From Shinella lacus (GTDB taxonomy: Bacteria; Pseudomonadota; Alphaproteobacteria; Rhizobiales; Rhizobiaceae), in NCBI RefSeq assembly GCF_010994755.1, contig NZ_WHSB02000003.1:248001-312000 (forward strand): 64,000 nucleotides of DNA, written 5' to 3'. Positions 8,991 through 54,630 of this stretch are shown here, one piece after another (position 1 is the stretch's first letter; every line of letters begins with the position of its first letter). The notes beneath the pieces were generated by a model, which had not been told where the DNA came from, did no database searches, and was given only the letters and a program-made list of their open reading frames with translations. Position numbers and translations under genes: made by a program.

Positions 8991-9857
8991 TCAGGCTTCC
9001 TTGTTCCCGCCGCGCTGCACCACCACGCTCAGCAGGGCGAGCAGGCCCGATCCCACCATCAGGAAGAACGAGACGGCGTTCAGCACCGGCGTCGAGCCGA
9101 CCTTCACCATGCGGTCGTACATGGTGATGGTGAGCGGCGCGTCAGAGCCGACCAGCATCAGCGTCGTGTTGAAATTCTCGAAGGAGACGAGGAAGGCGAC
9201 GACGAAGGCGGAAAACAGCGCGGGCATCAGGTAGGGCAGCGTCACCGTCATCAGCACGCGCAGCCGCGTGGCACCGAGATTGAGTGCGGCCTCTTCCAGC
9301 GCTATGTCGAATTTCCGGAGCCGCGCGCCGATCACCAGCGAGGTGATGGTCGTGAGGAACGAGAACTGGCCGAGGATGACGAGGAAGATGCCAGGGCGCA
9401 GGAAGTCCCATTCGATGCCGAAAGTTTCTTCGAGGCCGTTGGCGATCATGCTGGCGAAGACGAGGATCGAGATGCCGAGGATGACACCGGGAATGACCAG
9501 CGGCACGATCATCATGATGTAGAAGATGTTCTTGCCGGGGAACTGCTTGCGCTCGAACAGGAAGGCGTTGCAGGTGCCGGCGGCGACCGCGAGCGCGGAG
9601 ACGGCGACGCCGATGATCAGCGAATTCTGCAAGCCGCGCAGCAGGCGCCGGTCATGGAACATGCCGATCTTCGGCTCGGTGCTGCTGAAGAACCAGTCGA
9701 GCGTAAAACCGTTCCAGGGCAGAGCGGGGAACATCGAATCGTTGAAGGCGAACATGCCGGCGGCAAAGAGCGGTGCCGCCAGATAGACGAGGAACGCCAG
9801 CATATAGAAGCGATAGACCCACCGGAGGAAGGACGATTGGGGAGCCGCGACGTTCAT
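8991..9857 (-). CDS. ABC permease, PotC-like
   Basis: 288 residues with six or so membrane spans. The binding-protein-dependent EAA loop is visible as EEAALNLGATRLRVLMTVTLP. Start at 9857 (MNVAAPQ) has AAGGA just upstream inside the preceding gene's end; the two genes are two bases apart. It is the last gene of a four-gene polyamine/opine-type uptake operon (binding protein, ATPase, two permeases). It ends 3 bp from the convergent subtilase gene. Confidence 0.85.
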   Translation of the reverse strand: MNVAAPQSSFLRWVYRFYMLAFLVYLAAPLFAAGMFAFNDSMFPALPWNGFTLDWFFSSTEPKIGMFHDRRLLRGLQNSLIIGVAVSALAVAAGTCNAFLFERKQFPGKNIFYIMMIVPLVIPGVILGISILVFASMIANGLEETFGIEWDFLRPGIFLVILGQFSFLTTITSLVIGARLRKFDIALEEAALNLGATRLRVLMTVTLPYLMPALFSAFVVAFLVSFENFNTTLMLVGSDAPLTITMYDRMVKVGSTPVLNAVSFFLMVGSGLLALLSVVVQRGGNKEA

Positions 9858-9859
9858 GC

Positions 9860-10729
9860 TCAGTCCTTTGCGACGGTGGAGGCGAGGTTCTGGCCGGTCA
9901 GCCGCAGGCCGAGCCAGACGACGAACGAGGTGAAGACGAGCAGCAGCACGCCGAAGGTCGCGCCGGACTCCCAGTTGTACCGCGTCACGAACTGCTCGTA
10001 GATCTGCTCGGTGAACCACATGCTGTTCTTGCCGCCGAGCAGGATCGGCGTGAGATAACTGCCGGCCGTCAACATGAAGACGATGATGCAGCCGGCGACG
10101 ATGCCCGGCATGGCATAGGGCACGACGATGCGGCGGAAGACCGTGAGCCGGCTGCCGCCGAGATTGTAGCCGGCCTCGATCAGCGAATTGTCCATGCCGT
10201 CGAGCGTCGAGACGAGCGGCACGATCATGAACAGCACGACCGTGTAGACGAGGCCCATCACCACCGTGGCGTCGTTATAGAGAAATTCCACCGGGCCGCT
10301 GATCAGGCCGATCTTCTGCAGGAAGGACGAGACGAGGCCGGTTTCGCGCAGGATGACGATCCAGCCGAAGGCGCGCACGAGGTCGCTCACCCAGAGCGGG
10401 ATGAGGCACATCAGGAAGAGCGCGGCGCGCGAGCGGCGCTGCGCGATCTTGGCGATGTAATAGGCGACGGGAAAGCCGATGATGAGCGCCATCACCGTGA
10501 CGAGGATCGACATCCAGGCGGTGCGCAGCAGCGTGTTCCAGTAGATCGGCTCGCTGACGAAGGCGGCGTAGTTGGCGAGCCCGAAGGTGTATTCGCCCGG
10601 CCCTACTTTTTCCCGCAGCGAAATATAGCCGATGCCGAGCTGCGGCAGGATGATCAGCAGCACGATCCACAGCGCGAAGGGGGCGAAGAGCAGGATGAAG
10701 GAGAGTTTTCCGATGTCCGTGCGTGGCAT
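9860..10729 (-). CDS. ABC permease, PotB-like
   Basis: 289 residues starting MPRTDIGKL. It has an N-terminal hydrophobic anchor (FILLFAPFALWIVLLIILP) and further spans, with the EAA loop IEAGYNLGGSRLTVFRRIVVP. Start at 10729 is five bases after the ATPase stop; a longer in-frame reading upstream is only the shadow of the ATPase gene. It forms the heterodimeric channel with the permease at 8991-9857. Confidence 0.88.
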   Translation of the reverse strand: MPRTDIGKLSFILLFAPFALWIVLLIILPQLGIGYISLREKVGPGEYTFGLANYAAFVSEPIYWNTLLRTAWMSILVTVMALIIGFPVAYYIAKIAQRRSRAALFLMCLIPLWVSDLVRAFGWIVILRETGLVSSFLQKIGLISGPVEFLYNDATVVMGLVYTVVLFMIVPLVSTLDGMDNSLIEAGYNLGGSRLTVFRRIVVPYAMPGIVAGCIIVFMLTAGSYLTPILLGGKNSMWFTEQIYEQFVTRYNWESGATFGVLLLVFTSFVVWLGLRLTGQNLASTVAKD

Positions 10730-42229: not shown

Positions 42230-45200
42230 CTACACCCCGCCACCCTGCGGCAGCGCGTTGAGCTGCGCCGAGGTCATCGCGGCAAGCTGGCCGGGCGTAA
42301 AGGCGCTCGCCTGTTCGGTGCCTAGTCCGGCGAGCGTTGCCGTGCTCAATCCCGAAATGGCGTTCGAGCTCAGCGCGAGGATGTGCTCGGGCGTGAAGGA
42401 ACCGAGGTCGTCCGCACCCAAGGCCGCCGCCTGCGTTGCCGTCAGCGCGCCGACCTGCGCGGTCGAGAGCGCGCCGATCTGCTGGGCGCTCAAGGCCGAC
42501 ATCTGCCCGTAGGTGAGAGCGGCAACCTGCCCGGTCGAAAGGGCGGTGATCGCATCGCTGGAAAGCGAGCCGATGGCCGCCGTGGACAGGCCCTTGATCG
42601 CGGCTGCGCTGATGGCGGACAGCTCGGCGGTCGAGATGGTCTGCATCTGCGCGGTGGTGAGGCCGCCGATACCCGGCACGGCGAGCGCACCGATCTGGGC
42701 GAGCGAGAAGGCCTCGACCTGGTCCGTGCTGAGCGCTGCGACCTGGGCGCTGCTGAGACCGCCGACCTGGGCCGTCGTCAGCGCCGCGATCTCGGCTTCG
42801 GTGAGCGTCGCGAGATAGCTCGCCGGCACCCCCTTGATGGCATCGGCGCCGATCGCCGCCAGCTTGGCCGGCGTGAAAGTGTCGAGCGCCTGTGTCGACA
42901 GGCCCGCAAGCGCAGCCGAGCCGAGCCATCCGATCTGGCCGGCGGACAGCGCCTCGACCTGTTCCAGGCTCATTCCGGCGGCCTGCGGCCCGGTGAGGCC
43001 GGCGATCCCGCCGGCGCTCAGCGCAGCAACCTGCCCCGGGGTCAGCGCCACGATGTCTTCCACGTCGAGGGCTGCCACCTGCTTGGAGCCGAGGGCCGCG
43101 AGCTGCTGGTTGGTGAGCGCGCTCACCTGGCTGGAGCTGAGAGCCGCGACCTGGGCCGTGGTGAGCCCGCCGATGCCGGTTGCACTCAGCGCCGCGATCT
43201 GGCTGGCCGAGAAGCCGGCGAGCACGGCCGGCGACAGGCCGGTGATGGCGGAGGCGCCGATCGCCGCCATGTCGGCGGTCGAAAACAGCGCGATATCGCC
43301 CGCATCCAGCGCCGCGATCTGCCGCGAGCTGAGAGCTGCAACCTGCGCGCTGGTCAACGCCTCGACCTGATCGGAGGTCAGCGCCGCCATCTGGTCGCTC
43401 GACAGGCCCGATATGCCCGTGGGGCTGAAAGCGGCGATCTGGCCGGTGGTGAGCGAGGCGAGCATGGCCGTCGTCAGGCCGGCAATGGCGCGCGAATTGA
43501 TCGCGGCGAGGTCGCCCGGCGAGAACAGCTCCAGATCGTCCGCGCCGAAGGCGGCGATCTGCGTCGAGCTCAGCGCGGCGATCTGCGTGCTGGTCAGTGC
43601 CTCGGCCTGAAGGGTCGAGAGGGCCGCGATCTGGGTGGTGCTGAGCGCGGCGATGCCGGCGGTGCTGAGCGCGGCGATCTGCGCCGGTGACAGGACGGAA
43701 AGGTCGTTCGTTCCGAGCGCGCCCACCTGCGTGAAGCCGAAGGCGGCGAGCTGCGCCGTCGTCAATGCCTCAAGCTGGAAGGTGTTGAGCGCGTCGATCT
43801 GCACGCTGGTGAGGCCGGCGGCATTCAGCGCGGCGATCTGGCCGGTGGCGAGGGCGGCGATCGTCGCTGTCGACAGGCCCGCGACCGCGCTGGAGGAGAT
43901 GGCGGCGATCTCGCCGGCCGTGAAGGTCTCCATCCGGTCCGGCGCGAAGGCGGCGATCTGCGTGGAGCTCAACGCGGCGACCTGGGCGCTGGTCAGCGCC
44001 TCGGCCTGGAGGGTCGAGAGCGTGGCGATCTGGGTCGAGGTCAGGCCGGCGATACCGGCGGGGCTGAGTGCCGCGATCTGCGTCGGCGACAGGGCGGCGA
44101 TGTCTTCCGTGTCGAGTGCCGCGATCTGCTTGGAGCCGAGGGCGGCGAGCTGCGCCGTGGTGAGCGCGCCGATCTGCTCGCTGGTGAGGGCCGTGATCTG
44201 GCTGCTCGTCATGCCGGAAAGGCCGGCCGGGCCAAGCGCGGCGATCTGGCCCGTCGTCAGGGACGCGAGCATGGCCGTCGACAGGCCTGCCATGGCGCCC
44301 GAGCTGATGGCGGCCATGTCCGCGACGGAGAACGTGTCGAGGTCGTCCATGCCGAGCGCTGCGATCTGGCGCGAGGTGAGGGCTGCGACCTGCGTGCTGG
44401 TGAGGGCTTCGGCCTGGGCGGTGCTGAGCGCTGCGATCTGCTCGGTCGACATGCCGGCAATGGCAGCGGTGCTGAGTGCCGCAAGCTGGGCGGTGGACAG
44501 GGCTGCGATATATTCCGTGCCGAGCGATGCGATCTGGCGTGCGTCGAGCGCCTTGACCTGCGCGGGTGTCAGCGCATCGAGCTGCTGGCTGGTGAAGGCG
44601 GCGATCTGGCGCGGCGCCATGCCGCCGATGGCGGCCGTGCTGAGCGCCGCGACCTGCGCCGTGGAAAGGCCGGCGATCGTTTCGCTCGAAAGCCCCGTGA
44701 TGGCGCCGGCACCGATGGCGGCGATCTCGCGGGTGGAGAAGGTGGCGATCTCGTCCGTCGCGAAGGCCGCAAGCTGGACGGCGCTCATCGCGCCGATCTG
44801 CGTGCTGGTCAGCGCCTCGGCCTGGGCGACGTTAAGAGCTGCGACCTGCCTCGCGGCCATGCCGCTGATGCCGGCCGCACTCAATGCTGCGACCTGGGCG
44901 GCCGAAAGCGAGGCGATCGTGTCGGTGGAGAGGCCAGAAATTGCCGACGAGCCGATGGCGGCAATGTCCTGCGTCGAGAAGGTGGCGATGTCGTCCGGAC
45001 CGAAGGCGGCGAGCTGGGTGGCGCTCAGCGCGGCGATCTGGGCGCTGCCCAGCGCCTGTGCCTGCGCCGTGTTCAGTGCTTCGAGCTGCTGCACGCTCAT
45101 CGCGCCGATGGCGGCGGTGCTGAGCGCCGCGATCTGCGCCGTCGTCAGCGAGGCGATCATCGCCGCCGACAGGCCCTTGATGGCGTTGGAGCTGATTGCC

Positions 45201-48200
45201 GCGATCTCCTTCGTGGTGAAGGTCGCGATGTCGTCGGTGCCGAGTTCCTTGATCTGCTCGGAGGTCAGCGTGCCGATCTGCGCGCTGTTGAGCGCTTCGG
45301 CCTGGGCGGTGGTGAGCACGGCAAGCTGCTGGGAGTTGAAGCCCGCAATGCTGCCGGCATTGAGCGCGCCGATCTGCGCCGTCGAGAGCACCGCCACCTT
45401 GTCCGTTCCCAGCGCCGCGATCTGCGACGAGTTGAGGGCCGCCATCTGCTTGGTGGTGAAGTTGGCGATCTGCGCCGTGTTGAGCGCGGCGATCTGGCTG
45501 GACGTCAGGCCGGAAACGCCGAGCGCGCTCAGCGCCCCGAGCTGTGCCGAAGAAAGCGCGGCGAGGTCTGTGCTGCTCAGCGCCGCGACCTGTCCGCTAT
45601 TGAGGGCAGCGATATGCGCGGTCGTCAGCGCCGCGATCTGGCCGGAAGACAGCGCGGCCACCTGATCGGAGGCCAGACCGCTGATGGCGCCGGCGTTCAG
45701 GAATTCGATCTGCGCGGGGGAAAGCGCCGTGATGTCCTCCGCAAGCGCCTTCACCTGGGCTGCCGTCAAAGCCTTCACCTGGCCGCTGGAAAGCTGGCTG
45801 ACCTGCTGCGAGGTGAGAGCCTCGACCTGGCCGGTCGTCATGCCGGCGACCGCGTTGGTGCTCAAGGCGGCGAGCTGGCTTGCCGAAAGGGCTGCGACGG
45901 TCAGCGTGCTGAGGCCGGCGATGGCGCGGTAGCTGAGCGCCGCGATCTGGGCGGTGGACAGCGCTTGGATGTCTTCCGCTTCGAGGGCTGCGACCTGCGC
46001 GGAGCCGAGGCCGGCGATCTGCGCGGTCGAGAACGCCGCGATCTGCGAAGACGACAGGGCTTCGATCTGCGACGCCGTCATGCCGGACAGCGCGTTGCGA
46101 TCGAGCGCCGCGATCTGCGCGGTCGACAGTCCGGCGACCAGGCTCGCCTCCAGGCCGGCAATGGCCTTGGTACTGATCGCCGCGATATCCGCGGTGGAGA
46201 AGGTCGCGATGTCGGCGGAATCGAGTGCGGCGAGCTGCGTGGAGCTGAGCGCCTTGACCTGAAGCGCCGTCAACGCCTCGACCTGCGCGGTGCTCAGCGC
46301 ATCGAGCTGTGCCGTGGTAAGGCCGGTGATGACGGCGGTGCTGAGCGAGGCGATCTGCAGCGTGCTGAGCGCCGCGAAGAAGTCGTCGCCCATGCTGGCG
46401 ATCTGGCCCGGCGCGAGGCCGGCGATCTGGGTCGGCGACAGCGCGGCGATCTGGGCACTCGTCAGTTCCCCGAAGGCGGCCGAGTTGATGCCCTGCATGG
46501 CCTTGGTGTTGATCGCCGCCATGTCGGCGGTGGAGAAGGTCGCGATGCCGTCCGCACCGAGTGCCGTGATCTGCTTGGCGCTCAGCACGCGCACCTGCGT
46601 CGGCGTGAAGGCCTCGATCTGGTCGGGCGAAAGCGCTGCGAGCTGCGTGGCCGTGAGGCTGGCGATGACGGCGGTGCCGAGGGCGGCGATCTGTTCCGTC
46701 GTCAGCCCGGCGATGGCGTCGCTCTTGAGGCCGGTGATGGCCTTGCTGTTGATCGCGGCGAACTGGGCGGGCGTCAGCGCGGCCAGCGCATCGCTGTCGA
46801 GGGCGGAGAGCTGCGAGGCATTGAGCGCGCTGATTTGGCCCGGCGACAGTGCCTGGACCTGCTCGATGGTGAGGGCGCGCGACTGCGCCACCGTGAGGCC
46901 GGTGAGCGCGCCGCTGTTCATCGCGGCGATCTGGTCGGTTGTCAGCTCCGCCAGCGCATCCGTGCTGATGCCCGAAATCCCGCGATTGGTGAGCGCCGCC
47001 ATGTCGGCGGTGGAGAAGGTGGCAAGCGCCTCCGGCGTCAGCGCCGCGAGCTGGAGGGCGTTGAGCGCCCGGACCTGGGTCGGCGACAGTGCTTCGACCT
47101 GGTCGGTATCAAAGGCAGCGAGTTGCGCCGGCTTGAGGGCTGCGATCTGCGCGGTGGTGAGGGCCGCGATCTGGGCGGTGGTGAGGTTGGCGAGCGCGTC
47201 GCTGCCAAGGCCGCTCAGCGCATTGTTCTGGATCGCGGCGATGTCGGCGGCCGAGAACTCTTCCAGCGCATCGAGCGTGAACGCGCCAAGCTGGAGCGCG
47301 CTCAGCGCCTTGACCTGCGAGGGCGTCAGGGCTGCGGCCTGGGAGAAGCTGAGCTCCGCGATCTGCTGGGTGGTGAGGCCGGGAATGGCCTTGGCGCTGA
47401 TGGCGGCGATATGGGCGGGCGACAGGCCGGCAATGGTGGCGGTGCTGAGGCCCGCGATGGCGCTTGCCGAAAGGGCGGCGATATCCGCCGTCGAGAAGGT
47501 CGCGATGTCGATGTCGTCGAGCGCGGAGAGCTGCGCGGCGGTAAGCGCCTTAACCTGGGTTGGCGAGAGGGCTTCGACCTGCTCGGTTGCGAAGGCATCG
47601 ATCTGGTCGGTGGTGAGGCCGGAAATGGCCTTGCTATTGATGGCGGCGATCTGTGTGGTGGTGAACGAGGTCACGCCCTCCGCGCCGAATGCCGCGATCT
47701 GCTTTCCGTCGAGCGTATTGATCTGGGCGCCGGTCAGTGCCGCGATCTGGTCTGCCCTGAGGCCGGCGATCGCGGCGGAGCCGAGACCCTTGATCGCCTT
47801 GTCGTTGATGGCGGCGATGGCGCCGCTCGACAGCGCCGCGACGTCGTCGGAGGAGAGGGCGGCGATCTGCGTGGCGTTCATCGCGCGCACCTGCGCCGGC
47901 GACAGGACCTCGACCTGTTCGGTGGTGAAGGCTGCGACCTGCGCGGCCGTCAGGGCTTGGATGACGGTCGGGTTCAGCGCTGCGACCTGCTCGGTCGTGA
48001 GCCCGGCGATCGCCGCGGTGGTGATGCCCGAGAGCGCCCGGTTGGAGATCGCGGCAATATCCTGCACCGAGAAGGTGGCAAGGCCGTCCGCGCCCATGGC
48101 GCCGAGCTGCAAGGCGTTGAAGGCGCGGACCTGTGCGGGCGAGAACGCCTCGATCTGGTCGACGTCCAGAGCGTTGATCTGCGTGGAGGTGAGGCCGGTG

Positions 48201-48886
48201 ACCGCGCTGGTGCTCAGCGCCGGGATCTGCGTGCTGGAGAAGGCGGCGACGGCCGCCGTGCTGAGCGCCGCGATCTGTGCGGGCTTGAGGAGGGCGACCT
48301 GCGCGGTGGTGAGTTCGCGGATCTGGTCGGGCGTCAGCGCGCTTGCCTGCGCCGTCGTCAGGCCGGCAAGTGCCAGCGGGCTCAGCGCGCCGATCTGCGC
48401 GTCGGAAAGGGCGGCGATGGTGGCGGCGCTCAGGCCCTGCACGGCCTTGTAGCTGATCGCGGCCATGTCCTCGGTCGAGAAGGTCTTGATGTCGTCCGGG
48501 CCAAGCGCCTGGAGCTGGGCGGCGCTCAGCATGCGCACCTGCGCGGCCGTCAGCGCCTCCGCCTGGTCCTCCGTGAGCGCGCCCATCTGCCGCGTGGTGA
48601 GCGCGCCGATCTGCGACGGCGTCAGGCTTTCCACGTCGGCCTTGCTCAGCATGCCGAGCTGGTCGAGCGTCAGGCCGATGATCGCGCTCTGCGAAATGGC
48701 GCTGAGCTGGCGAGAGCTGAGGACATCAATGTCCTCGTTCTCCAGCGCGGCGATCTGTGCGGAGGAAAAGGCGCCGAGCTGGCCCGTCGAGAGCGATGCC
48801 ACGTCCTCCGTCGACCAGCCCTTGATCGTCGTTGCCGAGAGCTGCTTGATCTGGGCGATGCTGTAGGAGGAAACGGTCGACGGCAT
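42230..48886 (-). CDS. giant octapeptide-repeat protein (2218 residues)
   Basis: Nearly the whole protein is tandem eight-residue units of the form [L/F/I]-[S/T]-x-x-[Q/D/A]-[I/V/L]-x-[A/G], for example LSTAQIAA and LTPAQVKA; about 275 units fit in the length. No signal peptide, no membrane span, no cysteine seen, few aromatic or basic residues, and no RTX nonapeptides. The first residues are MPSTVSSYSIAQIKQLSA and the end is LPQGGGV. Ser/Thr-x-x-Gln/Asp is a helix N-capping pattern, so each unit may be a cap plus a short helix in a long solenoid. Start at 48886 follows AGGAATTTGCTC. Function unknown; adhesin, surface or intracellular scaffold are all possible. Confidence 0.85.
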   Translation of the reverse strand: MPSTVSSYSIAQIKQLSATTIKGWSTEDVASLSTGQLGAFSSAQIAALENEDIDVLSSRQLSAISQSAIIGLTLDQLGMLSKADVESLTPSQIGALTTRQMGALTEDQAEALTAAQVRMLSAAQLQALGPDDIKTFSTEDMAAISYKAVQGLSAATIAALSDAQIGALSPLALAGLTTAQASALTPDQIRELTTAQVALLKPAQIAALSTAAVAAFSSTQIPALSTSAVTGLTSTQINALDVDQIEAFSPAQVRAFNALQLGAMGADGLATFSVQDIAAISNRALSGITTAAIAGLTTEQVAALNPTVIQALTAAQVAAFTTEQVEVLSPAQVRAMNATQIAALSSDDVAALSSGAIAAINDKAIKGLGSAAIAGLRADQIAALTGAQINTLDGKQIAAFGAEGVTSFTTTQIAAINSKAISGLTTDQIDAFATEQVEALSPTQVKALTAAQLSALDDIDIATFSTADIAALSASAIAGLSTATIAGLSPAHIAAISAKAIPGLTTQQIAELSFSQAAALTPSQVKALSALQLGAFTLDALEEFSAADIAAIQNNALSGLGSDALANLTTAQIAALTTAQIAALKPAQLAAFDTDQVEALSPTQVRALNALQLAALTPEALATFSTADMAALTNRGISGISTDALAELTTDQIAAMNSGALTGLTVAQSRALTIEQVQALSPGQISALNASQLSALDSDALAALTPAQFAAINSKAITGLKSDAIAGLTTEQIAALGTAVIASLTATQLAALSPDQIEAFTPTQVRVLSAKQITALGADGIATFSTADMAAINTKAMQGINSAAFGELTSAQIAALSPTQIAGLAPGQIASMGDDFFAALSTLQIASLSTAVITGLTTAQLDALSTAQVEALTALQVKALSSTQLAALDSADIATFSTADIAAISTKAIAGLEASLVAGLSTAQIAALDRNALSGMTASQIEALSSSQIAAFSTAQIAGLGSAQVAALEAEDIQALSTAQIAALSYRAIAGLSTLTVAALSASQLAALSTNAVAGMTTGQVEALTSQQVSQLSSGQVKALTAAQVKALAEDITALSPAQIEFLNAGAISGLASDQVAALSSGQIAALTTAHIAALNSGQVAALSSTDLAALSSAQLGALSALGVSGLTSSQIAALNTAQIANFTTKQMAALNSSQIAALGTDKVAVLSTAQIGALNAGSIAGFNSQQLAVLTTAQAEALNSAQIGTLTSEQIKELGTDDIATFTTKEIAAISSNAIKGLSAAMIASLTTAQIAALSTAAIGAMSVQQLEALNTAQAQALGSAQIAALSATQLAAFGPDDIATFSTQDIAAIGSSAISGLSTDTIASLSAAQVAALSAAGISGMAARQVAALNVAQAEALTSTQIGAMSAVQLAAFATDEIATFSTREIAAIGAGAITGLSSETIAGLSTAQVAALSTAAIGGMAPRQIAAFTSQQLDALTPAQVKALDARQIASLGTEYIAALSTAQLAALSTAAIAGMSTEQIAALSTAQAEALTSTQVAALTSRQIAALGMDDLDTFSVADMAAISSGAMAGLSTAMLASLTTGQIAALGPAGLSGMTSSQITALTSEQIGALTTAQLAALGSKQIAALDTEDIAALSPTQIAALSPAGIAGLTSTQIATLSTLQAEALTSAQVAALSSTQIAAFAPDRMETFTAGEIAAISSSAVAGLSTATIAALATGQIAALNAAGLTSVQIDALNTFQLEALTTAQLAAFGFTQVGALGTNDLSVLSPAQIAALSTAGIAALSTTQIAALSTLQAEALTSTQIAALSSTQIAAFGADDLELFSPGDLAAINSRAIAGLTTAMLASLTTGQIAAFSPTGISGLSSDQMAALTSDQVEALTSAQVAALSSRQIAALDAGDIALFSTADMAAIGASAITGLSPAVLAGFSASQIAALSATGIGGLTTAQVAALSSSQVSALTNQQLAALGSKQVAALDVEDIVALTPGQVAALSAGGIAGLTGPQAAGMSLEQVEALSAGQIGWLGSAALAGLSTQALDTFTPAKLAAIGADAIKGVPASYLATLTEAEIAALTTAQVGGLSSAQVAALSTDQVEAFSLAQIGALAVPGIGGLTTAQMQTISTAELSAISAAAIKGLSTAAIGSLSSDAITALSTGQVAALTYGQMSALSAQQIGALSTAQVGALTATQAAALGADDLGSFTPEHILALSSNAISGLSTATLAGLGTEQASAFTPGQLAAMTSAQLNALPQGGGV
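42270..48870 (-). repeat. 24-bp tandem repeat array with ~240-bp higher-order period
   Basis: The DNA repeats every 24 bp. A marked segment (codons for a TFSTADxAAIS-like stretch) recurs at steps of mostly 240 bp (10 units), with some of 168 bp (7) and 336 bp (14): for example the TGGAGAAGGT string at plus positions 46195, 46531 and 47011, with variants at 46771 and 47251. This points to growth by duplication of a ~80-residue block. Long opposite-strand ORFs here are artefacts of the repeat. Confidence 0.85.
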
Positions 48887-49090
48887 GAGCAAATTCCTGG
48901 AAAAATGAAGACGAAAGAACTGTAAATCCGCGTTCTGGCAGATTGCCTGATACAGCGAGGAGCTTGCCTGAGCCTGAAGTTCGGAATCGTCGCCGCAGGC
49001 GCCTTGGGGCACCGCGTTTAAGCCCCGCAAAGGACGCTCCGCCGTGGGCTGGCGGATCAAGGAAATCAGCAGTGTGAGCGTGGTCGTTCA

Positions 49091-49122: not shown

Positions 49123-50610
49123 TCAGGCTTCGGTGCTGTGCAGGAGCGCGCGCAGGACGGCGACCATGCCGTTCAGCGGCCGGTCGTCGCGATAGACCGG
49201 GACGGCATCGCGAATCCGCGCGTAGAGCGCGGCGGTGCCGGCAGCCTTGCCGCTGGCGTTCGGCTGCATGTCATAGGCCTGGGCGGCGCTCATGACCTCG
49301 ATCGCCAGCACGGCTTCGAGATTGGCGATGATCGCCAATGCCTTGTCCGCCGCGGGCGTCGCGTGGGTGAGGATGTCTTCCTGCAAGGCCGAGGTGATGC
49401 CGCCATCGAGGCTTGCCGGCGCCGCAAGCCGCCGGTTTTCCGCGACGAGGCTTGCTGCCGTGTACTGGATGATCATGAAGCCGGAGGCGACCCCGCTGCC
49501 TTCCGCGAGGAAGGCGGGCAGGCCGCTCACCAGCGGATTGACGAGCCGGTCGATGCGGCGCTCGGAAATGGCCGCCAGTTCCGCCGCGGCAATGGCAAGA
49601 CCGTCCATTGCGAGCCCGAGGGCGGCGCCGATGGCATGGGCCTGCGAATGCACCTCAGGTGCCTCCGGCGAGCCGGTGACGACCGGGTTGTCGGTAACGC
49701 TTCCAAGCTCCCGGTTCACGACTTCGGCGATCTGAGCCACGCTGTCGCGAACCGCGCCATGCACCTGCGGCACACCGCGAAGGCTGAGCGGATCCTGCGT
49801 GCGCGAGCCCGCCGATTGCGCGAGCAGCGGGCTGCCGGCAAGCAGGCGGCGCAGGTTTTCCCCGACGGTCTGGAGCCCCGGCGAGGTGCGCAGCGCCAGC
49901 GGTGCCGCGGCAAACGGGTCCGCCTGCGCGCCGAGGTTTTCGTAGCTCATCGCAGCCGCCGCATCCGCCCAATCGAGCAGGTGCGTCGTGCGGGCGAGGG
50001 CGAGGCTGGCGAGGCCGGTGGCACAGGGCGTGCCGTTGACGAGGCTGAGGCCTTCCTTGGCTCCCAGCACCAGGGCCGAGCGGTTGAGCCTGTCCAGCGC
50101 CTGCCGTCCGGAGATCGTCTCGCCCTTGTGGCGGGCCTCGCCTTCGCCGATCAGCACGAGGCCGATGGCGGCGGCGTGGGTGAGGTAGCCGACCGAACCC
50201 TTCGAAGGAATGATCGGCAGGATATCGCCATTGAGCAGCGCCAGCAGCGTCTCGACCGTCTCGACGCGCACGCCGGAATAGCCATGTGCAAAATTGGCGA
50301 TCTGGGCGGCCATCACGGCGCGGGTCTCTTCGCGGCCAAGCGGTTCGCCGACGCCACAGGCGTGGCTGAACAGGATGTTGCGCGACAGTGCCTGCTGCTG
50401 GGGTATGTCGACGATCACGTCGCAGAGCGCGCCGACGCCGGTGTTGATGCCGTAGCCGCGCACGCGCTTTTCGACGAGCGCATCGACCACGGCGCGTGCG
50501 GCTGCGATGCGCTGCCATGTGTTGTCCGACAGGGAGAGCGCCGCGCCCTTGGCGACTGCGGCGATCTCCTGCCAGGTCAGCGGACGATCGAGGACGATCG
50601 TATCAGGCAT
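49123..50610 (-). CDS. hutH2: HAL/PAL-family lyase lacking the MIO tripeptide (HutH2-like)
   Basis: 495 residues, the length and order of histidine ammonia-lyases. The conserved Tyr loop (VRGYGINTGVGAL, near 53) and the NGTPCATG, QDPLSLRGVPQVHG and EVHSQAHAIG blocks are present. However, where histidases read GSVGASGDLAPLAH, this protein reads GSVGYLTHAA, so the Ala-Ser-Gly that cyclises to the MIO electrophile is absent. MIO-less members can still eliminate a better leaving group such as trimethylamine, as in ergothionase. Start at 50610 follows GGAGAAGTTCAGC. It overlaps the ATPase gene by 8 bp, in the order of the S. meliloti hutXWV-hutH2 operon. Confidence 0.8.
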   Translation of the reverse strand: MPDTIVLDRPLTWQEIAAVAKGAALSLSDNTWQRIAAARAVVDALVEKRVRGYGINTGVGALCDVIVDIPQQQALSRNILFSHACGVGEPLGREETRAVMAAQIANFAHGYSGVRVETVETLLALLNGDILPIIPSKGSVGYLTHAAAIGLVLIGEGEARHKGETISGRQALDRLNRSALVLGAKEGLSLVNGTPCATGLASLALARTTHLLDWADAAAAMSYENLGAQADPFAAAPLALRTSPGLQTVGENLRRLLAGSPLLAQSAGSRTQDPLSLRGVPQVHGAVRDSVAQIAEVVNRELGSVTDNPVVTGSPEAPEVHSQAHAIGAALGLAMDGLAIAAAELAAISERRIDRLVNPLVSGLPAFLAEGSGVASGFMIIQYTAASLVAENRRLAAPASLDGGITSALQEDILTHATPAADKALAIIANLEAVLAIEVMSAAQAYDMQPNASGKAAGTAALYARIRDAVPVYRDDRPLNGMVAVLRALLHSTEA

Positions 50611-51433
50611 GCTGAACTTCTCCTGCGCCGGCGCGGCGCTGCACGAAGCGGGCGACATAGTCGTTCGCCGGGCTGTTCAAGATTTCACTCGGCGTGCCGA
50701 CCTGTACCAGCTTGCCGTCCTTCAGGATCGCGATCTGCGCGCCGATGCGCAAGGCCTCGTCGAGATCGTGCGTGATGAAGACGATGGTCTTGTGCAGGTT
50801 CTTTTCGAGCTGGAGAAGCTGGTCCTGCATGTCGGCGCGGATCAGCGGGTCAAGCGCGGAAAACGCCTCGTCCATCAGGATGACGTCGGTATCGGCCGCC
50901 AGCGCCCGGGCAAGCCCGACGCGCTGTTTCATGCCGCCGGAAAGCTGGTGCGGGAACTTGTTCTCATAGCCCGCAAGGCCGACCGTCTCGATCCACTTCA
51001 TGCCGATGGGCGCGGCATCCGCCTTGGTCAACCCGCGCACGCGCTGGCCGTAGACGACGTTCTGCAAGACCGTGCGGTGCGGCATCAGCCCGAAATTCTG
51101 GAACACCATGCTGACGCGGCGGTTGCGGAAGTCGCGCAGTTCCTTCGCCTTGAGGTCCAGCACATTGCTGCCGTCGACGAGAATCTCGCCGCTGGTCGGC
51201 TCGATCAGGCGGTTGATGTGGCGCACCAGCGTCGACTTGCCGGAGCCCGAAAGCCCCATGATGACGAAGACGCGGCCGCCGGGAATGTCGAGGCTGACAT
51301 TGTCGAGGCCGACGCTGCACCCGGTCTTGGCGAGGATGGCGCCCTTGTCGGCACCGTCCTTGGTCATCGCCAGCGCGGCCTTCCAGTTGCCGCCGAAGAT
51401 CTTGGAAACGTTGCGGATTGCGATGTCAGTCAT
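50603..51433 (-). CDS. hutV: betaine/histidine ABC transporter ATPase (HutV/ProV-like)
   Basis: 276 residues. Walker A MGLSGSGKSTL, signature LSGGMKQRVGLARAL, Walker B VILMDEAFSALD and HDLDEAL switch region; VFQNFGLMPHRTV is typical of quaternary-amine (ProV/OpuAA) ATPases. It lacks the C-terminal CBS domains of osmo-regulated ProV/OpuA, in line with a catabolic rather than osmotic role. Start at 51433 overlaps the permease stop by 8 bp. Confidence 0.88.
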   Translation of the reverse strand: MTDIAIRNVSKIFGGNWKAALAMTKDGADKGAILAKTGCSVGLDNVSLDIPGGRVFVIMGLSGSGKSTLVRHINRLIEPTSGEILVDGSNVLDLKAKELRDFRNRRVSMVFQNFGLMPHRTVLQNVVYGQRVRGLTKADAAPIGMKWIETVGLAGYENKFPHQLSGGMKQRVGLARALAADTDVILMDEAFSALDPLIRADMQDQLLQLEKNLHKTIVFITHDLDEALRIGAQIAILKDGKLVQVGTPSEILNSPANDYVARFVQRRAGAGEVQHA

Positions 51434-52283
51434 TGCCGCGTTCCTTCCGGCTGGATTGGCCAAAACCCTGCGTGATGCGATCCAGCACGATCGCGAGGAT
51501 GACGATGCCGAGGCCGGCCTCCAGCCCCTTGCCGACGTCGAGCGTCTGGATGCCGTTCAGCACCTGTTCGCCAAGCCCGCGCGCGCCGATCATCGAGGCG
51601 ACGACGACCATCGAGAGCGCCATCATGATCGTCTGGTTGAGGCCGGCCATGATGGTGGGGGTGGCGAGCGGAAGCTCGACGCCGAAGAGGATCTGCGGCG
51701 GGCTGCCGCCGAAGGCGGTCGCGGCCTCCACCACTTCGCTGTCCACCTGGCGGATGCCGAGATCGGTCAAGCGGATGAGCGGCGGCACGGCATAGATGAT
51801 GGTGGCGAGCACCGCCGGCACCTTGCCGAGGCCGAAGAGCATGATCGCCGGAATGAGGTAGACGAAGCTCGGCATGGTCTGCATGACATCGAGCACCGGC
51901 AGCGTGATGCGCCGCATCAGTTCGCTTTTTGCCAGCCAGATGCCCATGGGAACGCCGATGGCGACGGAGATGAGGCTGGCGATCAGCATCAGCGCCAGCG
52001 TCTGCATCGTCAGGTCCCAGAGGCCGAGCGCGCCGACGGCAAACAGCATGACCGCAACGGTGACGACGAGCGAGATCTTCTTCGACGCGAACCAGGCGAG
52101 CGCCAGGAAGACGATGAAGACGGCCCACCAGGGCAGACCGCGCAGGATCCATTCGACGAAAAGGATCGCCTGGAGAAGCGTCTGCGAGATCGCCTTGAAG
52201 ACGAACCCGTAATTCACCACCAGCGACTGCACGAAGTCGTTGATCGGGCCTCGAATGGAAATATGGAAAGCTTCAGGAAACAT
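51426..52283 (-). CDS. hutW: betaine/histidine ABC permease (HutW/ProW-like)
   Basis: 285 residues with an N-terminal periplasmic-side helix (PINDFVQSLVVNYG) and six or so spans. The permease loop reads VEAATAFGGSPPQILFGVELPLATP, matching ProW/OpuAB. It pairs with the ATPase encoded next. Confidence 0.9.
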   Translation of the reverse strand: MFPEAFHISIRGPINDFVQSLVVNYGFVFKAISQTLLQAILFVEWILRGLPWWAVFIVFLALAWFASKKISLVVTVAVMLFAVGALGLWDLTMQTLALMLIASLISVAIGVPMGIWLAKSELMRRITLPVLDVMQTMPSFVYLIPAIMLFGLGKVPAVLATIIYAVPPLIRLTDLGIRQVDSEVVEAATAFGGSPPQILFGVELPLATPTIMAGLNQTIMMALSMVVVASMIGARGLGEQVLNGIQTLDVGKGLEAGLGIVILAIVLDRITQGFGQSSRKERGND

Positions 52284-52380: not shown

Positions 52381-53415
52381 TTACTTGACGGCAGCTTCGA
52401 TGCGCGCCTTGGCGTCGGCCGAAACCCAGCCGCCCCAGACGTCGGCCTTGGTCTGGAGGAAGTTCTTGGCGGCCGCGACCGCATCGACCTTCTGGTCCGT
52501 CATGTAGGCGAGGCTGGCATTGACGTCTTCCAGCGGGAAGGTCGCCTTTTCGAGGATTTCCATGATGTCCGGCGCTTCGCCCGCAAAGGTGCTGTTGACG
52601 CCGTAGGCGACTTCAACGGAGGGGAAGGCGCAGCCGGCGTCGCGCTTGCCGTCGGCGGTGGTCAGTTCCTTCCAGCAGGCGTCGTTGTAGGCGGGCTCTT
52701 CGAGCTGGATGAGCTTGTACTTGCCCATGATCGCCGTCGGGCTCCAGTAGTAGAACAGCATCGGCTCGCCCTGGAGATAGGCGGCGGCAATGGCGGCGTC
52801 GAGCGCGGTGCCGGTGCCCGGGCGGAAGTTCACGTAGGTTTCGCCGAGCTTGTAGGCTTCGAGCTTGGCGGTGTTGACGCCCTCGCAGGTCCAGCCCGAC
52901 GGGCAATTCAGGAAGCGGCCCTTGGTGGGCTCTTCCGGGTCGAGGAACAGTTCGACGATCTTCGGGTCGGAGAGCTGCTCGACGCTCTTCAAGTCCGGCG
53001 CCTTGGCCTCGATGCCCTTTTCGGCATCGCCCTTCACCAGATATTCCGGCACGAACCAGCCTTCGGCGGCGCCCACGAAGGTCTTGCCGACCGACTTCAC
53101 CTGGCCGGCGGCGGCCGCCTTGTTCCAGACGTCGGAACGGCCGATCCACTCTTCGGCGAAGATCTGCACGTCGTTGTTGGCGGTCGCCTGTTCGAGCGTC
53201 ACGGAATTGCCGGGGATCGAATCGACCTTGCAGTCGTAACCCTTAGACAGGATTTCCTTCATGACTTCGGTGATGAAGGCGCCGCTTTCCCAGTCGATGC
53301 CCGCGAAGGTGACGGTCTTGCCGTCGCTGCAATAGGAGGCCTGAGCCGTGCCGGCGGAGCCGGCAATGAGGGCTGCGGCGGCGAGAAGCGAATATTTCAG
53401 TTTGGAATTCAGCAT
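52381..53415 (-). CDS. hutX: betaine/histidine-binding protein (HutX/ProX-like, OpuAC domain)
   Basis: 344 residues. Signal peptide to about 26 (LLAAAALIAGSAGTAQA), then an OpuAC-type binding domain with VTFAGIDWESGAFITEVMKEIL and EEWIGRSDVWN. Several tryptophans and the YYWSPTAIMGKY loop could form the aromatic cage for a quaternary amine. Start at 53415 follows AAAGGGGAAC. The S. meliloti homologue takes up histidine, proline and betaines and is induced by histidine. Confidence 0.88.
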   Translation of the reverse strand: MLNSKLKYSLLAAAALIAGSAGTAQASYCSDGKTVTFAGIDWESGAFITEVMKEILSKGYDCKVDSIPGNSVTLEQATANNDVQIFAEEWIGRSDVWNKAAAAGQVKSVGKTFVGAAEGWFVPEYLVKGDAEKGIEAKAPDLKSVEQLSDPKIVELFLDPEEPTKGRFLNCPSGWTCEGVNTAKLEAYKLGETYVNFRPGTGTALDAAIAAAYLQGEPMLFYYWSPTAIMGKYKLIQLEEPAYNDACWKELTTADGKRDAGCAFPSVEVAYGVNSTFAGEAPDIMEILEKATFPLEDVNASLAYMTDQKVDAVAAAKNFLQTKADVWGGWVSADAKARIEAAVK

Positions 53416-53536
53416 TTCAGTTCCCCTTTTTGATGATGGTAACGATGAAAACCAGATTTTTCAGGCGGCCACCGGTGTGGCCTCAGGTCATGCGCAGCCT
53501 CCGCGACCTCAGGCCGCCTGTTCATTAAGTTCACTA

Positions 53537-53552
53537 TACAACTTGTCTTGTA
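53537..53552. promoter_or_regulatory. candidate HutC-type operator, transporter side
   Basis: TACAACTTGTCTTGTA has TACAA/TTGTA arms around six bases, resembling the TTGTA...TACAA sites of HutC-group GntR repressors. It lies 122 bp before the binding-protein gene. Confidence 0.45.
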
Positions 53553-53764: not shown

Positions 53765-53782
53765 AAGTTGTATATGTAACTT
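53765..53782. promoter_or_regulatory. candidate HutC-type operator, regulator side
   Basis: AAGTTGTATATGTAACTT has AAGTT/AACTT arms around GTATATGT and carries the TTGTATA half-site. It lies 108 bp before the regulator gene. Confidence 0.45.
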
Positions 53783-53889: not shown

Positions 53890-54630
53890 ATGCTGAATGA
53901 AGACGCCGGACTGCTGGCGAAGGATGCGGGCGAGCGCGGCGCGCCGATCTACGAGCGCATGAAGACGCAGATCCGGGCGAAGATCGAAACCGGCGAATGG
54001 CCGGTCAATCACCGCATTCCCTCGGAGAACGAGTTGGTGGACATGCTGGGCGTCAGCCGCATGACGGCGAACCGGGCGCTGCGCGAACTCGCCAACGAGG
54101 GCGTCATCACCCGCGTGCAGGGCAAGGGCTCGTTCGTGGCGCCGAAGAAGCGCAGCGCACCGGCGCTCGGCGTGCGCAACATCGCCGATGAAATCCTGGA
54201 GCGCGGCTCGGTCCATCGCATCGAGCTCATCCTCGCCCAGAGCGAGACCTGCGGCCACGAACTGGCGGCGGCGCTGGAACTCGATGTCGGCGCGCAGTCC
54301 TTCCACTCCGTCATCGTGCACAATGAGGACGACGTGCCGATCCAGTTGGAAGACCGCTTCGTCAATCCCGCCATCGCGCCGGATTATCTGGAGCAGGATT
54401 TTTCCCACACCACGCCGAACGCCTTTTTGACGAGCATCGCGCCGATCGCCAAGACCGAGCAGTTCATCGAGGCGGTGCTGCCGCAGCCCTGGGAGTGCAA
54501 GGTGCTGGCGATTGCCCGCTCTGAGCCTTGCATCCTGATCCGCCGCCGCACCTGGTCGCAGGACCGCGTGGTGACGACGGTGCGCCTGCTCTATCCCGGT
54601 TCGCGCTACCGCCTCCAGAGCAATTTCTGA
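53890..54630 (+). CDS. hutC: GntR/HutC-family repressor
   Basis: 246 residues. GntR winged helix (IYERMKTQIRAKIETGEW, RIPSENELVDMLGVSRMTANRALRE) and a UTRA ligand domain with EDRFVNP and a YPGSRYRL end, the HutC signature. HutC proteins sense urocanate; if the divergent lyase makes thiourocanate or urocanate from a betaine, the same effector logic holds. It ends 3 bp from the convergent hexosaminidase gene. Confidence 0.85.
   Translation: MLNEDAGLLAKDAGERGAPIYERMKTQIRAKIETGEWPVNHRIPSENELVDMLGVSRMTANRALRELANEGVITRVQGKGSFVAPKKRSAPALGVRNIADEILERGSVHRIELILAQSETCGHELAAALELDVGAQSFHSVIVHNEDDVPIQLEDRFVNPAIAPDYLEQDFSHTTPNAFLTSIAPIAKTEQFIEAVLPQPWECKVLAIARSEPCILIRRRTWSQDRVVTTVRLLYPGSRYRLQSNF

Follow-up and report, generated by a model that had tools for sequence, protein, structure and literature searches.

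The window analysed here, a stretch of 64,000 nucleotides from Shinella lacus (contig NZ_WHSB02000003.1, positions 248,001 to 312,000), encodes a protein that resembles histidine ammonia-lyase (HAL, HutH) and lacks the MIO-forming Ala-Ser-Gly tripeptide. This raises the question of which reaction such a lyase performs, and on which substrate. The earlier note on this locus had proposed that the enzyme is related to ergothionase and opens ergothioneine, hercynine or a similar histidine betaine, and that the label 'histidase' would be wrong. Hercynine is histidine betaine, the trimethyl form of histidine. Judged by residues and gene context, the window lyase is probably a MIO-independent trimethylamine-lyase that converts hercynine to urocanate and trimethylamine and feeds the Hut pathway. 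The features of the locus are listed below.

49123..50610, minus strand: HutH-like lyase without MIO, hutH2 type, proposed hercynine trimethylamine-lyase (PF00221 aromatic amino acid lyase profile, 504 bits, above the cut-off of 27.3)
50176..50199, minus strand: GSVGYLTH, residues 138-145 of the lyase, former MIO site with three residues deleted (alignment)
49777..49797, minus strand: QDPLSLR, Leu at the position of HAL Tyr280, Gln and Arg kept (alignment)
49633..49647, minus strand: SQAHA in place of GGNFH of HutH, HAL Phe329 to Ala (alignment)
50603..51463, minus strand: ABC ATP-binding protein, ProV/HutV type (TIGR01186, 344.3 bits against a cut-off of 326.6)
51426..52283, minus strand: ABC permease, ProW/HutW type (PF00528)
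52381..53415, minus strand: OpuAC/ProX-type periplasmic binding protein, HutX type (PF04069, 202.9 bits)
53527..53544, no strand: palindrome AAGTT-N8-AACTT, candidate regulator site on the hutX side (pattern search)
53765..53782, no strand: palindrome AAGTT-N8-AACTT, candidate regulator site on the hutC side (pattern search)
53890..54630, plus strand: divergent HutC-type regulator, GntR and UTRA domains (TIGR02018, 292.7 bits against a cut-off of 220)

The lyase open reading frame (P0001) encodes 495 amino acids between an ATG at 50610, with AGGAG 5' of it, and a stop at 49123; an alternative start at 50658 would give 511 amino acids. Both NCBIfam cut-offs for HutH are missed (448 against 539.15 for TIGR01225 and 470.6 against 524 for NF006871), which bears out the doubt about the histidase label. 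At the former cofactor site the protein reads GSVG-Y-LTHAAAIG, equivalent to GSVGASGDLAPLAH of HutH. This is an exact deletion of three residues, and a 60-row alignment places a Tyr and a three-residue gap where HutH has Ala-Ser-Gly, so that the tripeptide taken as the mark of HutH membership is missing. Two other ASG triplets occur in the window lyase; the one at residue 452 is not conserved among 27 relatives, and at residue 375 no amino acid reaches a majority in the alignment consensus, so a MIO tripeptide elsewhere in the protein is unlikely. The alignment covers both T. denticola ergothionase and HutH, the comparison that the earlier note had suggested. Chance and sequencing error were ruled out as sources of the deletion because it is shared by 99 distinct homologues and is also found in S. 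meliloti, Burkholderia pyrrocinia and Rhizobium etli plasmid records.

We assessed how the deletion is linked to other active-site positions among 154 distinct PF00221 homologues from the collected relatives' loci, after ten more had been dropped with an unmatched second motif. All 99 sequences with the three-residue deletion had Leu at the position of HAL Tyr280, as did all ten homologues of other MIO-less types, and the 45 with ASG all had Tyr there. Five of the ten dropped sequences are present in the 60-row alignment and obey the same rule. Among the rows of that alignment, which are less than 80% identical, the 31 of the deletion clade carried both the three-residue deletion and Leu for Tyr280 without exception (31/31 each). 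Y53, H83, Q277, R283 and E414 were kept in 31/31 of them and N195 in 29/31; position 329 was Ala in 26, Pro in four, Thr in one and Phe in none. The numbering and the functional roles of these eight positions follow HAL. On this basis the imidazole- and carboxylate-binding residues of HutH are retained in the window lyase by alignment, and Y53 represents the Tyr loop that the earlier note had correctly described as kept. Judged by these alignments, the MIO-less lyase is a conserved family. Its distribution is patchy: with the own genome counted, a lyase at E 1e-120 or better was found in 17 of 101 near relatives (6/81 genera), and one at E 1e-100 or better in 8 of 289 genomes across the class (4/224 genera).

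An AlphaFold model of the window lyase was built from 27 own and fetched sequences (mean pLDDT 88.7, pTM 0.90; residues 403-409 poor). When Foldseek was run with this predicted model, HAL came first with a TM of 0.91 and ergothionase sixteenth with 0.90, in keeping with the relationship to ergothionase suggested previously. The solved-structure list includes the P. putida HAL mutants F329A, Y280F and D145A. Among solved chains, histidases come closest to P0001 (4.4e-81), and ergothionase ranks far below them (4.7e-47). The window lyase thus shares with HutH the predicted fold, 35% identity to P. putida HAL, the imidazole/carboxylate pocket residues and, in many relatives, the hut context; unlike HutH, it has no Ala-Ser-Gly, has Leu for Tyr280 and Ala for Phe329, and scores under the HutH cut-offs. 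With T. denticola ergothionase (PDB 6s7j/6s7q) it shares the HAL fold, the lack of a MIO tripeptide, Leu at the Tyr280 position and the kept Tyr53, His83 and Glu414 positions. However, ergothionase has one residue deleted at the MIO site rather than three, has Ser for Asn195, is only 27% identical, falls in a separate clade and acts on ergothioneine.

In the tree, the 31 deletion rows formed one group with support of 100/100, apart from T. denticola ergothionase. The latter lies outside the deletion group, as do two rows resembling P0002, a further lyase of the Shinella lacus genome, and three other MIO-less rows; the branch that unites P0002 with ergothionase is supported at 97/94 and carries a long-branch warning. 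The starred branches of the tree force two changes of MIO state. We tentatively favour two independent losses of MIO with a convergent change of Tyr to Leu; 'twice' is tentative because a single clade of all MIO-less rows was only weakly rejected, at a p-AU of 0.043 and with long branches present. An additional MIO-less PF00221 group with the motif GSIGAGDL was observed in one genus of the family (L113, L114, L115, L117 and L127), and its two aligned members, L113 and L117, have Arg at the position of HAL His83.

The window operon runs hutX (OpuAC), hutW, hutV, lyase, with hutC divergent. The profile matches agree with the OpuAC-type transporter and HutC regulator that had been recognised beside the lyase. 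The ends of hutW and hutV overlap, and the end of hutV overlaps the start of the lyase gene by 8 bp; the ATG of the HutV-type gene is probably near 51433. The best NCBIfam matches of the HutW-type permease are choline and glycine betaine permeases, under their cut-offs, and the ProX match of the HutX-type protein is also under its cut-off. The nearest solved chains of the latter (7yle and 1r9l) are glycine betaine/proline-type binding proteins. The HutC-type regulator scores below the PRK14999 cut-off (265.2 against 424). Two AAGTT-N8-AACTT palindromes occur in the hutX-hutC intergenic region, against 0.00 expected by shuffling. The pattern is found three times in the 7.04-Mb genome, two of them in this region, and a reversed control pattern is also found three times, so only the pairing within one intergenic region supports these candidate sites. 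The palindrome was noted near hutX in all 12 of the loci L021-L032, and in 30 of 166 loci overall. A HutC-type operator pattern was absent from the intergenic region of the window and present before hutI on another contig. No hut enzyme gene was found among the scanned neighbours of the window operon, the hut cluster being on another contig, which counts against the hercynine reading. The scanned neighbours of the lyase held no thiourocanate-pathway gene, the context by which membership of ergothionase was judged. Directly downstream of the lyase, at 42230-49060 on the minus strand, lies a 2276-aa open reading frame of degenerate repeats (AQIAALSTAQI-like).

We then characterized the gene context of the relatives, using the best 80 of 101 loci in named genomes. 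Contexts were counted by blastp to reference proteins with identity thresholds, and some loci end at contig ends; because many loci come from close relatives, the counts that follow are not independent events. HutC was found in 66 of these 80 loci, HutW and HutV in 51 each and HutX in 50. An OpuCC-type binding protein was present in four loci, all of them without HutW and HutV, which gives a betaine-type ABC transporter in 55 loci. Among the other Hut proteins we counted HutF in 46, HutD in 45, HutI and HutU in 24 each, HutG in 22 and HutH in 21; at least one of HutI, HutU, HutG, HutH and HutF occurred in 48 loci, and HutI, HutG, HutH and HutU occurred together in 20. The gene directly 3' of the lyase was hutI in 23 loci, hutU in two (25 for either) and hutD in 18, and 37 had no gene of the reference set there. 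Outside the window's class, L158 has the order hutX-hutW-hutV-lyase-hutI-hutG and also holds hutH, hutU, hutD and hutC, and L159 the order hutU, BCCT transporter, lyase, hutI, hutG.

Three features of these contexts count against hercynine as the substrate. Ten of the best 80 of 101 loci have neither HutC nor any of HutI, HutU, HutG, HutH and HutF (among them, L094 has HutD and L097 has HutW and HutV), and no betaine-type ABC transporter was seen in 25 of the 80. Thirdly, in one sub-clade the ABC transporter is of the polar-amino-acid (SBP_bac_3) rather than the betaine type. The lyase relatives of L162, L163, L164 and L200 adjoin an SBP_bac_3 or, in L200 as annotated, an octopine-type ABC transporter, and these lyases may take a different substrate. 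A divergent sub-clade of about 50% identity (L160 and L161) had no recognised hut gene nearby; the L160 lyase has a LysR regulator and a MacB-type efflux system as neighbours, and L161 has a similar large ABC protein nearby. A lyase fusion considered for L095 was rejected, as its long open frame matches PF00221 alone and overlaps hutF in another frame; L012 has a similar frame. A search for DUF1989 as a pointer to trimethylamine use gave a single match, a 291-aa open frame, and was uninformative.

The same arrangement occurs in S. meliloti, where hutC and hutF are followed in the annotation by three ABC genes (two labelled proline/glycine betaine) and a 'histidine ammonia-lyase' with GSVGYLTH and QDPLSLR. 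The hutXWV-hutH2 operon of S. meliloti was reportedly described by Boncompagni in 2000, with its last gene taken for a histidase. It resembles the window operon in gene order and in the GSVGYLTH deletion, and on the S. meliloti side hutC and hutF are both adjacent; its last gene is annotated as a histidase, whereas the window counterpart is read here as a probable hercynine lyase. In the Burkholderia and Rhizobium etli records, too, the protein with the deletion is labelled a histidase. We take SMc00669-SMc00674 to be the hutXWV operon compared here and its lyase gene to be hutH2, and the S. meliloti hut transporter operon is presumably induced by histidine. PA5093 is presumably a second lyase-family gene. 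One source calls PA5093 hutG (PMC12772324), and another states that Vibrio natriegens HutH cleaves ergothioneine (PMC13276445). A 2017 paper, citing Boncompagni 2000 among others, gives SMc00669-SMc00674 as an operon for histidine and proline uptake (PMC5596199). The histidine uptake reported there also counts against the hercynine reading. Among the matches listed in the open-access literature, a scope that leaves most subscription papers outside, no description of a hercynine lyase was recognised.

The Shinella lacus genome holds three PF00221 genes: the window lyase, P0002 and P0003. P0003 is a canonical HutH with GSVGASGDLAPLAH; its gene belongs to a hutU-hutG-hutH-hutI cluster outside the contig of the window, and the protein clears both HutH cut-offs (726.1 for TIGR01225 and 736.1 for NF006871). 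P0002 also lacks the MIO tripeptide, and T. denticola ergothionase (E = 4.5e-54) ranks first among its solved relatives. Its locus, an ergothionase-like lyase cluster, is as follows.

L101, genome G000, contig C33:188500-208000: P0002 locus, lyase at 9112-10650

The neighbours of P0002 are a second urocanase homologue, an S-Me-THD-family protein, an M20 peptidase, an amidohydrolase and a LysR regulator. Ergothioneine degradation is a multi-step pathway, and this neighbour set fits it; L101 is probably an ergothioneine degradation cluster. The window lyase is probably not the ergothionase of this genome, because P0002, amid ergothioneine-type degradation genes, fits better.

To these we added a census of 36 lyase-carrying genomes. 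It took in the 23 genomes, other than the own one, that matched among the near relatives and across the class, plus the genomes behind 13 of the 80 named loci; two pairs probably represent one genome each. Urocanase was found in 36/36, and a HutH-scoring match (598 bits or more) in 34/36; GSVGASGDL was present in all 30 of the HutH-type loci inspected for it, the 28 newly fetched ones together with L133 and L142. No HutH-scoring match was found in Pseudogemmobacter humi G565 and the MAG G570, in the assemblies as given and with completeness not stated, and both genomes count against the hercynine reading. The hut operon of G565 (L084) holds the MIO-less lyase, and its other PF00221 match scores as ergothionase-like; the G565 lyase might serve as a histidase, or the pathway there may be hercynine-only. 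An ergothionase-like match, by score alone, was found in 16 of the 36 genomes (one in two pieces and one with an internal stop), each with at least two urocanases. The other 20 had one urocanase in 18 cases and two in G569 and G573. The simplest reading is that ergothionase-like enzymes bring their own urocanase and that the window-type lyase usually does not, since its product would be urocanate. G567 has three urocanases, one of them directly 3' of the lyase, which counts against the hercynine reading.

These results bear on what else the window lyase could be. A role as a second ergothionase, or as a lyase acting on some other histidine betaine that carries sulfur (ergothioneine sulfonate, for example), appears unlikely. 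Ergothionase is the known MIO-less relative (PMC13405746), the predicted model has a TM of 0.90 to it, and ergothionase activity is reported from Agrobacterium radiobacter, with Agrobacterium genomes among the carriers of the window-type lyase. Yet P0002 is the better candidate in the same genome, near desulfurase- and hydrolase-family genes, the relatives of the window lyase often stand beside plain hut genes, and the window lyase and ergothionase fall in different clades. Of the substrates named earlier, ergothioneine is thus disfavoured by the presence of P0002, and hercynine is favoured by the hut-gene context of the relatives.

We also regard as rather unlikely a slow MIO-free histidase, or a lyase for N-alpha-mono- or dimethyl histidine. 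The histidine-pocket residues are kept, and of the two genomes in 36 without a HutH-scoring match, one has the lyase inside a hut operon; but Tyr280 and Phe329 are lost as well, a separate HutH-scoring gene is kept in 34/36 genomes, and without MIO ammonia leaves poorly. It seems very unlikely that the window lyase is a non-catalytic paralogue modulating HutH by assembling with it, even though HAL active sites are formed jointly by subunits and hutH shares the locus with the lyase in 21 of the best 80 of 101 loci. The substrate-pocket residues are kept across the whole clade, and in Shinella lacus the window lyase and hutH are on different contigs, with the lyase having its own transporter and regulator.

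The reading as a hercynine lyase draws these strands together. A missing MIO calls for a leaving group better than ammonia, the recurrence of betaine transporters from unrelated families suggests a quaternary amine, the retained HutH pocket residues suggest an unmodified imidazole, and the hut neighbours suggest urocanate as the product; hercynine is favoured as the substrate because it fits all four. The missed HutH cut-offs, the TM to ergothionase and the adjacent betaine-type transporter are best explained by a trimethylamine-eliminating lyase that acts on a histidine betaine, and the ordinary hut genes beside the relatives favour hercynine over ergothioneine. From residues and context we infer that trimethylamine is eliminated from an imidazole betaine; the substrate, products, chemistry, inducer and co-transcription are likewise predicted. 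Hercynine would be imported by the betaine-type ABC transporter hutX-W-V, whose overlapping genes lie upstream of the lyase, and the lyase would hold its imidazole and carboxylate with the same residues as HutH. The beta-proton would be abstracted, probably by Tyr53, and trimethylamine would depart; MIO would be dispensable, since quaternary amines leave readily. The urocanate formed would enter the ordinary HutU-HutI-HutF-HutG pathway of the cell and would probably lift HutC repression. The window lyase would in this way join a known kind, the MIO-less HAL-fold trimethylamine-lyases with ergothionase as prototype.

We lean, by a narrow balance, towards a wider proposal: a widespread and unrecognised hercynine branch of Hut, in which proteobacterial hutH2 would be a hercynine trimethylamine-lyase, the HutXWV 'histidine transporter' would be its importer, and MIO-free elimination would have arisen twice with the same Tyr280-to-Leu change. 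If true, the histidase label of a gene found in many soil- and plant-associated bacteria is wrong, and it would become clear why hut operons should, oddly, join a betaine transporter to a second 'histidase'. The family would offer a second example, beside ergothionase, of a MIO-free HAL fold, possibly with a convergent active-site change. It would also give bacteria a simple route from hercynine, a fungal and actinobacterial metabolite, to glutamate and trimethylamine.
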